64,000 nucleotides of DNA from Vagococcus sp. CY52-2. GTDB taxonomy: Bacteria > Bacillota > Bacilli > Lactobacillales > Vagococcaceae. Positions within the stretch are counted from its first letter, which is position 1. Every line of letters begins with the position of its first letter. Shown in pieces: positions 2,075-9,162 of the stretch. The position numbers and the translations under genes are program-made. The notes beneath the pieces are model-generated. The model saw only the letters and a program-made list of their open reading frames with translations, searched no databases and was not told the DNA's origin. The stretch is from contig NZ_CP093384.1 of the NCBI RefSeq assembly GCF_022655055.1, positions 186,001 through 250,000 of the forward strand, in the 5' to 3' direction.

Positions 2075-2118
2075 AAACAGAAAAACAAAAGCCGTTTTTA
2101 GCTTCTGTTTTTCTTTAC
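2075..2118 (-). terminator. Terminator after the 49-residue peptide gene
   Basis: A long stem with one mismatch (AGAAAAACAGAAGC against GCTTTTGTTTTTCT) and a loop of about eight bases, followed on the minus strand by a U-rich tail. It lies 36 bases past the stop of the small gene and closes a one-gene transcription unit. Confidence 0.75.
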
Positions 2119-2153: not shown

Positions 2154-2300
2154 TTAGTTAAATTGACGACAACCAACTAGAGTGGGATGAGGGTCAAAAT
2201 CGTCAGATAATATTGGTATATCTGTAACTATCTCTGTGGCATTGTGTCCCACAATATGAGCCACAACAATTGCAATGGCAAAAACTATCATCATAATCAT
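2154..2300 (-). CDS. 49-residue membrane peptide under an M-box riboswitch
   Basis: A short reading frame beginning MIMMIVFAIAIVVAHIVGHN and ending with an acidic, soluble tail (DDFDPHPTLVGCRQFN). The N-terminal 18 residues form one predicted membrane helix; the tail has three histidines and several aspartates that could bind metal. TAGGAGGTGG lies six to eight bases before the start, an excellent ribosome site. It is the only gene between the Mg2+ riboswitch terminator upstream and the terminator downstream. M-box elements normally control Mg2+ transporters, so this peptide is probably made at low Mg2+ and may modulate a transporter or the membrane. I do not recognise the family. Confidence 0.7.
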   Translation of the reverse strand: MIMMIVFAIAIVVAHIVGHNATEIVTDIPILSDDFDPHPTLVGCRQFN

Positions 2301-2313
2301 CCACCTCCTAAAA

Positions 2314-2349
2314 TTAAAAATAGCCCTAACTAAATAAAGAGGTTAGGAC
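2314..2349 (-). terminator. Expression-platform terminator of the M-box
   Basis: On the minus strand CCTAAC...GTTAGG forms a hairpin followed by GCTATTTTT. It stands between the aptamer and the ribosome site of the peptide gene, so Mg2+ binding is expected to favour termination here. Confidence 0.8.
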
Positions 2350-2364
2350 TTGAAAGAACGAACA

Positions 2365-2525
2365 TATTTTAAGTAATATGTTGAGCTTTAGCACTATGCA
2401 ACGTAAAGAAACATCTTAGCTATCTTATGAAAAGCCTTAACGACAATTCCTGTTCTACCCATTGGTGTCTCTCGACGTTTTTGGGCAATAGCCTGTGTTT
2501 GCATAGGAGCCTCACCTAACAAAAT
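2365..2525 (-). promoter_or_regulatory. M-box (ykoK) magnesium riboswitch aptamer
   Basis: The minus strand reads GTTAGGTGAGGCTCCTATGC at its 5' end, then GCTATTGCCCAAAAACGTCG, CACCAATGGGT and, near the 3' end, GCATAGTGCTAAAGCTCAAC. These are the conserved blocks of the ykoK/M-box RNA in their usual order. In the known family Mg2+ compacts the aptamer and switches off downstream expression. Here it is followed by a terminator and one 49-residue peptide gene rather than an mgtE, mgtA or corA gene. Confidence 0.93.
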
Positions 2526-2541
2526 TCATTTATCGTATTTT

Positions 2542-2569
2542 ATTTTAACGGAATATAAGGCATTGTCAA
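2542..2569 (-). promoter_or_regulatory. Promoter of the M-box transcript
   Basis: A minus-strand -35 TTGACA and -10 TAAAAT are separated by 16 bases, shortly before the aptamer. The -35 overlaps the stop codon of the upstream YibF-like gene. Confidence 0.7.
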
Positions 2570-3318
2570 TTTTTAACTTGTTTTATGAGTAAGAAAATCG
2601 TAATGGGAATCGTGATGGCAATACTAATCCCGCTAAAAATAATTGCAACCCATTCTGTGACAATTAATTTACTGTTTACCAGTTGTGTTAGACTATAATT
2701 CAAATCAAATACCCAAATTAATAATGCAAACTGACTACCTATAGCTGCGAAAATGAGGGTATTAATTGTTGGTCCTAAAACATCTTTACCTACTGTTAGA
2801 CCAGAAGATTTCCATTCAGAAAGAGACAGGTCAGGAAGTTGTTCTTTAATTTCAATCATGGATGAGGTAATTGAAATAGCAATGTCGTTAATAGCACCAA
2901 TGACAGTCATAAGAAGGACAGACACACTTAAATCAACAAAAGATATTCCAATATGTAACGAGTACATATCCATTTCCATTAATCCTTCAAGAGGGATTCC
3001 TTGAAGATGCAATAAGGAAGTGGTAAAAAATATCGGAAAAACCATGAGTAAAATAATGAATGTACTACTTAAAAAAGCTGACTTTGTTGAAGGGTTAAAC
3101 CCATTAATATTAAATAGATTATTTGCACTGATTAAAATAGAGGTTATAACGGTTAATATAATTGGAGAAAAGCCTAAGTTAAACCCTAAAATCATGAAAA
3201 ATAGCATTGCTAAATTAATCCCCAATGTGATTAATGTAAGTAATCCCCTTTTTTTTTGAAAAAACCAGAATAACAAGATAAGAACTAGAAGTAAGACTAA
3301 GTTAACACTCATGTTCAT
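2566..3318 (-). CDS. YibE/F-family membrane protein (YibF-like)
   Basis: A protein of 250 residues with about seven hydrophobic segments and no catalytic motif. It shows the paired family segments GAINDIAISITSSM and VGKDVLGPTINTLIFA, which also occur in slightly different form in the gene just upstream. The two genes overlap by 17 bases and are certainly co-transcribed. The family is widespread in Firmicutes and its function is unknown; the glycine/proline-rich repeated membrane motif suggests a transporter or channel, which is inference. Confidence 0.85.
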   Translation of the reverse strand: MNMSVNLVLLLVLILLFWFFQKKRGLLTLITLGINLAMLFFMILGFNLGFSPIILTVITSILISANNLFNINGFNPSTKSAFLSSTFIILLMVFPIFFTTSLLHLQGIPLEGLMEMDMYSLHIGISFVDLSVSVLLMTVIGAINDIAISITSSMIEIKEQLPDLSLSEWKSSGLTVGKDVLGPTINTLIFAAIGSQFALLIWVFDLNYSLTQLVNSKLIVTEWVAIIFSGISIAITIPITIFLLIKQVKN

Positions 3319-4423
3319 TCCTCCTTGTCAGAAAAATACTTGCAATGAAACTGGTAATGGGGATAGTTAAGATAATCCCAATGCTTCCAATTAATGCGCG
3401 AGTCACTTCGAGCGAGAGAGAAATAGGAAACGTATAATTAAAGGACATATCATTTCTTAAAAAAATAAGGATTAAAGGAATGGATCCACTTAAATAAGAA
3501 AAAAACATAATATTAATCATTGGACCAATGACATCAGATCCAACTTGTATCCCTGATTGATACAATGCTTGAGGGGTTAATTGCTTATGTCTTTGACCGA
3601 TTTCATTCATGGCAGTACTGAGTGTAATGGAAATATCCATTGTTGCTCCCATCGTCCCAATTAATAAACTAGAGATGAAGAGAACATGTTGGGGCCTAGT
3701 AATCAATTCCATTTCTTCATAACGAAGTCCTTTATGTTTTAATAAAGTGATTACGCCTACTCCTACGATAAAAGTCACCAGTGTGCTACAAATTGTTGCT
3801 AAAATAGCAATCTTAGTTTTTTGATTCCAACCATTTGAAATAATTAAGGTACTAGACACAATGATAGGAAAAAATAGTAAGCAAAGCCACACAAGAGATT
3901 GACTAGAAATCTGTTCATAAATGATTAATAAGCAGTAAAAAAGACCAGTATTTATTATAAGTCCTAGTAGAGACGTAACCCCATTTTTTCTTCCTATAAG
4001 TATTAGTAAAAGAACAAAACAAAACATCATGATAGCCAAACCTGTATCTCGTTTAGTATCGAGAATGGTAGTTTGTGACATGTTACTATCCTTGATAGAT
4101 AGAAATACTAACTCGCCTTTTTTATAATCTTGATCCTTAATTTTTGATTGACTAAAGGTATTTGAAAGAGTTAGTTTTTTTCCTTTATATTGAGAGGATA
4201 ATACAATTAATTCTATCTTTTGAGTTGTTAGGACGTCTTTATTTTGATGTTCATCAATAGTGTCTTGTTTATTGCTTGTTTCAATTTTAGTAATTTTCCC
4301 TAAAGGATCATGGTATTGATTATATTGCAATGTTTGATAAATCCACCAAATATTTAAGGTTAAAAGGATGGCGGCAAAAAAGCCCCATAGATATTTTTGT
4401 AACAAAGTAAACCTCCTTATCAA
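3302..4423 (-). CDS. YibE/F-family membrane protein (YibE-like)
   Basis: A protein of 373 residues. A first membrane helix is followed by an extracytoplasmic domain of about 90 residues (rich in K, D and T, with KGKKLTLSNTFSQS), then about seven further helices. The membrane part has GATMDISITLSTAMNEI and VGSDVIGPMINIMFF, matching the motif pair in the partner gene downstream. It is the first gene of a two-gene operon; GGAGG lies just before the start. Its biochemical role is not known. Confidence 0.85.
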   Translation of the reverse strand: MIRRFTLLQKYLWGFFAAILLTLNIWWIYQTLQYNQYHDPLGKITKIETSNKQDTIDEHQNKDVLTTQKIELIVLSSQYKGKKLTLSNTFSQSKIKDQDYKKGELVFLSIKDSNMSQTTILDTKRDTGLAIMMFCFVLLLILIGRKNGVTSLLGLIINTGLFYCLLIIYEQISSQSLVWLCLLFFPIIVSSTLIISNGWNQKTKIAILATICSTLVTFIVGVGVITLLKHKGLRYEEMELITRPQHVLFISSLLIGTMGATMDISITLSTAMNEIGQRHKQLTPQALYQSGIQVGSDVIGPMINIMFFSYLSGSIPLILIFLRNDMSFNYTFPISLSLEVTRALIGSIGIILTIPITSFIASIFLTRRNEHEC

Positions 4424-8905: not shown

Positions 8906-9000
8906 TTAAATAACTAGATGATTAACAGAATCTGAGTGATTAATTTGACTCTTAAGCGGATACATGACATACTGTGTGTGAAATAAATTAAATACATAAC

Positions 9001-9097
9001 CGTCACAAAGGGGAGCCTTCAAGCTGAGAATGAGTATAGACTCTAAACCCTCGAACCTGATATTGTTAATTCAATCGTAGGAATTGTGTGAAGTGGT
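9001..9097 (+). promoter_or_regulatory. TPP (thi-box) riboswitch
   Basis: The conserved blocks AGGGGAGCC, GCTGAGA, ACCCTCGAACCTGAT and ATCGTAGGAA appear in order, matching the thiamine pyrophosphate aptamer. It precedes the thiamine transporter gene by about 65 bases. A short GC-containing hairpin (AGTGGT / GCACTGCT region) between aptamer and ribosome site may form the switch; whether it acts on transcription or translation cannot be decided by eye. Confidence 0.93.
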
Positions 9098-9162
9098 AGC
9101 AAGTAAGCACTGCTCTTTTGTTGATTGGTCACGTATGAATCGATAATAGGAGGAGTTTTTTT

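Follow-up and report, generated by a model that had tools for sequence, protein, structure and literature searches.

A lone small membrane protein gene behind an M-box magnesium riboswitch in Vagococcus, with predicted pairing between the two ends of its mRNA

Results

Organization of the locus

The window, a stretch of 64,000 nucleotides from the 2.1 Mb genome of Vagococcus sp. CY52-2, carries on its minus strand, in this order, yibE, yibF, a promoter, an M-box, a terminator, an AGGAGG ribosome-binding site, a small gene and a second terminator. The first two genes encode YibE/F-like membrane proteins matching PF07907 and extend over positions 3302..4423 (yibE; E 1.5e-62, start codon as given by a mechanical ORF list) and 2566..3318 (yibF, directly upstream of the riboswitch; E 2.8e-54). 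The promoter, TTGACA-16-TAAAAT at 2542..2569, displays 11 of the 12 consensus letters; its -35 hexamer overlaps the yibF stop codon, and both hexamers are kept in five close species, in agreement with the promoter proposed in a first-pass annotation of this DNA. Of the 8 promoter-like sites that a scan of 801 bases listed, it scored highest, but the scan is weak when taken alone because shuffled sequences already give 3.8 sites on average. The spacing from the promoter, and nothing else, places the predicted transcript start at 2536-2534.

Positions 2366..2530 constitute a full-length M-box (ykoK) Mg2+ riboswitch aptamer, as the first-pass annotation had recognized. The covariance search that it called for aligned RF00380 model positions 1-169 with a score of 142.7 bits (gathering score 44; E 3.1e-32), and the M-box was the sole match when 1650-2660 was scanned with all Rfam families at E up to 1. 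Downstream of the aptamer lies an intrinsic terminator at 2309..2350 (stem 2350-2322 plus a T-rich tail), which forms the predicted expression platform and is absent from the list of our simple terminator scan, a scan that allows loops of 3-8 only. In five close species its stem is paired in 45/45 cells, and one pair is changed on both sides, from G-C to A-U, in G001. The minimum fold of the leader is the terminator form (core-pair probability of 0.998, computed without any ligand term), while a 205-nt leader intermediate prefers an antiterminator in which UAAAUGAA...GUUAGG at the 5' end pairs with CCUAAC...UUUAUUUA of the terminator 5' arm and loop. The CCUAAC of the terminator 5' arm is thereby the predicted partner of the aptamer GUUAGG, and the platform comprises, as predicted structures, a terminator and a competing antiterminator. 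With its full aptamer, terminator-type platform and predicted antiterminator strand on the 5' side of the aptamer, the element resembles other members of RF00380.

The Shine-Dalgarno sequence AGGAGG occupies 2304..2309, and none of the 16 columns at 2310-2295 is variable. The gene ends at 2154 and is followed by the second terminator at 2079..2114, the predicted end of the small-protein mRNA. This was the sole terminator-like site in the scan (0.4 expected); its 11 counted pairs are formed in 55/55 cells, one of them with a two-sided change in two species. The terminator hairpin, ribosome site, small gene and closing terminator of the earlier description were thus all recovered on the minus strand.

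Two other elements of the window were observed in passing. A TPP riboswitch lies at 8999-9100 (62.2 bits), and positions 1690-1830 hold a conserved non-coding element with an inverted repeat, AGACCTAACAGG/CCTGTTAGGTCT, and an inner hairpin, ATTGGAG/CTCCAAT. The latter is present as a single copy in 5 of the 14 genus genomes, the five close species, at 86-100% identity, and displays no Rfam match.

The small gene and its product

The open reading frame at 2300-2154 comprises 48 codons plus a stop, beginning with an upstream in-frame ATG at 2300. The start at 2294 leaves 9 nt to the ribosome site and coincides in the alignment with the start codon of the divergent relative G002; because it fits both spacing and conservation, the product is taken to comprise 46 residues rather than 48 (gene at 2154..2294). 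The 49-codon gene initially described therefore stands as a gene, with its start moved downstream by two codons.

Relatives of the small protein lie directly behind an M-box in 6 of the 14 genomes of the genus, counting that of the window itself; five are 77-100% identical along the entire peptide and the sixth (G002) is 40% identical. The other 8 genomes lack it, and the profile search gives one match per genome. Conservation of the frame behind M-boxes in relatives, on which the first-pass annotation had made its claim depend, was thus found by genome search. Over ten pairs from five close species dN/dS is 0.12-0.53, and the variable columns at the three codon positions number 12, 4 and 18 of 46 each. 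On these sequence comparisons the small gene looks real and under purifying selection.

Sixteen residues are invariant in all six proteins. They include A12-H13-I14-x-G16-H17-N18-x-T20-E21-I22, so that the motif AHIxGHNxTEI is common even to the 40%-identical G002. Residues 1-16 form the most hydrophobic stretch (mean Kyte-Doolittle 2.7), and the window's protein contains 5 D/E and 1 K/R (5 D/E and 0-2 K/R across the three species computed). A structure model from the six sequences displays one helix, residues 2-25, at a low-confidence mean pLDDT of 63, the first two blocks of ten residues reaching 84 and 78. The membrane helix and acidic tail read from the letters alone are consistent with this weak model and with the charge count. 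Spaced four residues apart, H13, H17 and E21 would share one face of the helix, where they may bind a metal or a partner.

The protein appears to be confined to the genus. A profile search of 29 family genomes gave matches in 6, all within the genus, and a search of 395 order genomes again returned these 6, along with weak partial matches in 15 further genomes (E 0.004-0.1), many of them inside long frames. At seven of the weak matches (G101 three times, G093, G033, G329 and G313) the short ORFs listed, a set restricted to those with a ribosome-site-like motif, included none that matched. A weak match in G006, missed by the profile search, contains an internal stop. A scan of a collection of genome contigs gave a V. 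bubulae match at 80%, as well as five fragments at 37-39% in Bacteroidetes/Gammaproteobacteria MAGs, which have no M-box in the fetched stretch and were taken as chance. A plasmid search gave no match to the small protein, and no solved structure matched below E 0.7. Pfam and NCBIfam held 0 families at E 1 for the 46-aa form. BAP (E 0.049) and TIGR01757 (E 0.16), each found with a single relative, and CAAD (E 0.26), found with the 48-aa form, fell short of the cut-off and were taken as chance; as no Pfam or NCBIfam family reaches it, the idea that the protein is a fragment of a known family was set aside.

Outputs of M-box riboswitches in the order

M-boxes usually control mgtE, mgtA or corA. 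To place the Vagococcus locus among them, 152 M-box loci of the order were surveyed, 24 from the genus, 24 from the rest of the family and 104 from elsewhere, the last taken from the best-scoring matches listed in a search of 395 order genomes and hence not a random sample. A downstream frame was counted when it lay on the same strand, comprised at least 100 aa from an ATG, GTG or TTG start and began within 650 nt; such frames are not proven genes. They follow 145 of the 152 M-boxes. Six of the seven loci lacking one are the small-gene loci, and the seventh, L189, contains a self-repeating insert followed by an MgtC-like frame. The first-pass annotation had named transcripts reading through into a transporter gene as the observation that would count against it; as far as sequence allows, this was checked and rejected, no same-strand frame of at least 100 aa starting within 650 nt in any of the six loci. 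The other 18 genus M-boxes precede frames that we take to be P-type ATPases from their motifs (17, two of them after a GNAT-like frame) or an MgtC-like protein (1). Thus, the riboswitch is of a known kind with an unusual output, a lone small membrane protein gene.

At least one further M-box is present in every one of the six genomes. When the 24 aptamers of the genus are placed in a midpoint-rooted tree, those that precede the small gene group as one clade (support 0.991), and the M-box and the small gene were therefore probably inherited together from a single origin and travelled as a unit, as judged from the sequences. In the titles and abstract openings listed from the open-licence PMC literature, no lone small membrane protein was found behind an M-box in this group. 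The parts of PMC9943018 available to us count 27 antisense-acting M-boxes against 828 sense-acting ones, and mention Vagococcus solely for a cobalamin riboswitch.

Several other arrangements were seen among the surveyed loci. At 14 of the 18 other genus loci (L001, L010-L013, L015-L023) a short ORF beginning MxDS(S/E) lies 3' of the M-box terminator; these ORFs comprise about 32 aa, carry a strong ribosome site where read (MDDSSQ..., MEDSSHGRS...) and, mostly lying ahead of a P-type ATPase gene, apparently represent a conserved leader ORF. Similar short ORFs are found in L057-L071, and in other genera with ...EPGSSRQRR.... In some species a one-helix ORF of 33-42 aa (for example MSELTIFLLFLGVGCFLWGIFYGKKV...) immediately precedes the P-type ATPase gene, and in others it is in frame with the ATPase start (L011, L012, L013, L015 vs L001, L017, L022), which hints at a small pump subunit. 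The GNAT-like frame, presumably an acetyltransferase, follows the M-box as a protein of ~143-180 aa in L075-L078 and stands ahead of the ATPase gene in L013 and L015. At locus L074 (G017:C16:177527-178040) a P-type ATPase-like gene is preceded by two M-boxes in tandem, which are separated by a short ORF. In family f3 of the order, genomes have up to six M-boxes, and those of L129, L131-L139, L141, L142, L146, L148, L204, L207 and others precede cell-envelope-like frames rather than transporters, which by eye we take to be PAP2/sulfatase-like, FtsW/RodA-like and LytR-CpsA-Psr-like.

Genomic context upstream of the riboswitch

The genes yibEF, which the first-pass annotation had not remarked on, lie directly upstream of the M-box in all six loci. 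The distance from the yibF stop to the aptamer is 35 nt (36 in G002), most of which is promoter, and the simple scan listed no terminator in this gap. For these two reasons yibEF transcripts would run into the M-box, which may then end them at high Mg2+ and extend them over the small gene at low Mg2+. The available parts of PMC7821165 describe other riboswitches that end or extend transcripts of an upstream gene. The claim that the M-box drives only the peptide consequently holds downstream of the riboswitch but perhaps not for the whole transcript, the yibF stop lying 35 nt upstream.

Seven other genus members have yibEF matches, none with an M-box or small gene there, and G005 has no yibEF match. 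In G003 the flanking genes are similar to those of G002, yet a gene on the opposite strand ends within 28 nt behind yibF, which suggests that the module was gained or lost between G002 and G003. The yibEF matches of G007 and G010 (L119, L120) are split or contain stops, so that yibEF seems dispensable in these two genomes. Searches for YibE or YibEF in the open-licence PMC literature gave nothing relevant among the matches listed.

Complementarity between the 5' and 3' ends of the mRNA

The 24 nt that start with the last base of the stop codon (3'UTR arm, 2154-2131) are complementary to 2535-2508 (5' arm), a segment that begins at the predicted start of transcription and takes in the first strand of the aptamer; a bulge of 3 nt and a single unpaired base interrupt the match. 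This complementarity does not figure in the first-pass annotation. The duplex has a predicted energy of -28.1 kcal/mol in four species (0/1000 dinucleotide shuffles in each) and -25.8 kcal/mol in G001 (2/1000 shuffles). G002 has no such pairing: its best value, -11.1 kcal/mol, is reached by 273/1000 shuffles. Pairing beyond chance and conserved was thus found in five of the six species, and the module does not need it everywhere, since G002 lacks it. The duplex is part of the minimum fold of the whole 496-nt mRNA (z -6.1, a value that covers all 496 nt, aptamer included), to which it contributes 18.6 kcal/mol; these folding energies ignore Mg2+ and translation.

The two arms are strongly conserved in comparison with their surroundings. 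No column of the 5' arm region (2535-2506, 30 columns) is variable, and 1 of 25 is at 2156-2132, as against 14 of 17 in the spacer (2131-2115), 18 of 36 in the second terminator and 54 of 101 in the next stretch. Pairing is kept in 119 of the 120 cells of the duplex in five species; 2 of the 24 positions of the 3'UTR arm vary, both in G001, where one change leaves a wobble and the other loses an end pair. None of the 24 pairs displays covariation (22 never vary, one varies on one side and one is the end pair lost in G001), and of all 44 counted pairs 2 changed on both sides, a number reached by 76/500 shuffles and hence not beyond chance. The case for the pairing thus rests on conservation and complementarity. 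Among 63 of the 152 M-box loci, scanned in the same way, the five strongest downstream complements are those of these five species; the sixth-best, at an unrelated locus, already reaches -24.6 kcal/mol.

In sequence, the arm CCUAACAAUUAUUUAUCG resembles the antiterminator strand CCUAACCUCUUUAUUUA, of which it seems to be a second copy, and a better one. By analogy with hbs, described below, the simplest role for the complementarity would be a clamp of the finished mRNA. An inverted repeat at the DNA level is a possible origin of the two arms, but was rejected as the sole cause, because the start of the complementarity coincides with that predicted for the transcript and because conservation covers the arm but not its flank. 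The conservation of the arm might alternatively reflect an antisense promoter: a plus-strand promoter-like site, TTTACA-16-AATAAT at 2114-2141, would read antisense into the small gene. This site displays 10/12 letters in G000, G009 and G012 and 8/12 in G008, and none was found in G001. Pairing of a 3'UTR with an aptamer was not found in the titles and abstract openings listed from the open-licence PMC literature.

Discussion

The reading that we favour, at a probability of about 0.6, is that the cell responds to low Mg2+ by making a protein that modulates a membrane protein, YibEF or MgtA, and that the mRNA for it clamps its own ends. In part this bears out the first-pass proposal of a peptide made under Mg2+ starvation that may modulate a transporter or the membrane; as a sequence finding the locus is stronger than first described, and the proposed role is plausible. 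It starts from the aptamer, the terminators, the selected gene, the aptamer clade, the yibEF linkage and the conserved complementarity, and from these we infer regulation in cells, translation, a partner and the function of the clamp. M-boxes generally stop the transcript at high Mg2+ and allow expression at low Mg2+. Here, at high Mg2+, the M-box would fold, the terminator would form and the transcript would stop before the small gene. Low Mg2+ would instead let GUUAGG, the first strand of the aptamer, pair with CCUAAC of the terminator 5' arm, and transcripts starting at the gene's own promoter, probably joined by others reading through from yibEF, would extend over the gene. Its product would be a protein of 46 residues with one N-terminal membrane helix, a face formed by H13, H17 and E21, and an acidic tail, which may bind a membrane partner and change its activity or stability, as MgtS does for MgtA. 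In five of the six species the 3'UTR, clamped onto the 5' end of its own message, may shield it from nucleases and hold the aptamer open, so that the low-Mg2+ message would stay stable and translatable. As for the partner, a guess from the neighbourhood, YibEF is the first candidate on the circumstantial ground of the yibEF-M-box arrangement, and MgtA the second; the occurrence of yibEF without the small protein in 7 genus members argues against YibEF.

MgtS, MgtR and MgrB are short single-helix membrane proteins linked to low Mg2+ that act on a membrane partner, MgtA in the case of MgtS, and they are controlled through PhoPQ, not an M-box. The Vagococcus protein resembles them in kind only, as a short protein with a single putative membrane helix in a weak model; it differs in lying behind an M-box, and no Pfam or NCBIfam family fits it. 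The locus differs equally from the usual M-boxes, whose outputs are transporter genes such as mgtA, in that a lone small gene follows. Among the published cases found, the pe20 M-box of M. tuberculosis comes closest. As far as the available parts of PMC12810186 describe it, that M-box controls the conserved small ORF rv1805A through a translational platform and Rho; rv1805A is the first ORF of an operon with pe20 and ppe31, and its authors propose that it modulates, or is part of, a Mg2+ transporter. Both M-boxes lie directly before a conserved small ORF, whereas the Vagococcus locus displays an intrinsic terminator and no downstream gene. Pairing between 5'UTR and 3'UTR, for its part, has precedents in the parts of two papers available: the B. 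subtilis hbs mRNA is protected from RNase Y by 14 nt paired in this way (PMC7821165), and the S. aureus icaR mRNA pairs likewise (PMC7821165, PMC3868564). As in these mRNAs, the Vagococcus 3'UTR is predicted to pair with the 5' part of its own message, but with an aptamer strand of a riboswitch as partner, over a greater length (24) and from the predicted transcript start onward. What would be new, judging from sequence, is that a riboswitch of known type has a single small membrane protein for its output, and that the 3'UTR of the message is complementary to the aptamer strand.

A bolder and unlikely reading is that the 3'UTR copy of the antiterminator strand locks its RNA open and also acts in trans, opening or blocking mgtA and other M-boxes, beside the message encoding a membrane protein. 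Also doubtful is that the locus specifies a dual-function RNA in which the 3'UTR arm and terminator form a trans-acting anti-M-box RNA that tunes other M-boxes, mgtA-like and mgtC-like. A trans role is conceivable because the arm covers the common core of other M-boxes: its core AGCCUUCCUAAC is complementary to GUUAGG-U-GAGGCU, found in the six other M-boxes of the five close species, with predicted duplexes of -18.8 to -19.7 kcal/mol. A conserved arm and then a terminator of variable sequence, as seen here, is the layout of a 3'UTR-derived sRNA. The arm nevertheless pairs more strongly with its own 5' end (-25.8 to -28.1 kcal/mol), a pairing that includes CGAUAAAU, which is missing before GUUAGG in the six other M-boxes; the complement of any one M-box core fits others, and G002 has no complementary arm.

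We consider it quite improbable that the ORF matters through its translation and not its product, in the manner of the leader ORFs of mgtA mRNAs, which act via translation. In many loci of the family, short ORFs do separate the M-box terminator from the gene that follows, the MxDS(S/E) ORFs of 14 of the 18 other genus loci among them. Here, however, there is nothing to lead into, as no frame of at least 100 aa starts within 650 nt in the six loci and a terminator hairpin follows in five; amino-acid conservation covers the hydrophobic stretch and AHIxGHNxTEI, while the other leader ORFs are hydrophilic and by eye unrelated.

Very little likelihood attaches, likewise, to a membrane-active, toxin-like peptide with a fold-back mRNA and a plus-strand antisense RNA. 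Such fold-back mRNAs are a feature of the type I toxins hok and AapA1, and the peptide is short and hydrophobic, its mRNA has complementary 5' and 3' ends, and the promoter-like site TTTACA-16-AATAAT lies on the plus strand at 2114-2141, at 10/12 also in G009 and G012. However, no such site was found in G001 and that of G008 is weak (8/12), in contrast to the conserved arm; charge counts for three species make the protein acidic in each (5 D/E, 0-2 K/R), and there is one match per genome. To our knowledge, control by a Mg2+ switch is not typical of type I toxins, which also speaks against this explanation. A spurious ORF in a decayed mgtA leader, suggested by its very short length and its presence in only 6 of the 14 genus genomes, is scarcely credible given dN/dS of 0.12-0.53, the codon-position bias, a frame kept in six species, another M-box in each of the six genomes and a separate aptamer clade.

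Under the favoured reading, in which the clamped message of the small gene yields a modulator of YibEF or MgtA, the locus would supply a riboswitch-controlled Gram-positive counterpart of the small membrane proteins with which enterobacteria tune Mg2+ transport, and, were YibEF the partner, it would provide a first link of YibEF proteins to Mg2+. A 3'UTR copy of its own antiterminator strand would let an mRNA remember the state in which it was made, and, if the arm also acted in trans, a riboswitch mRNA would become a regulator of its sister riboswitches.
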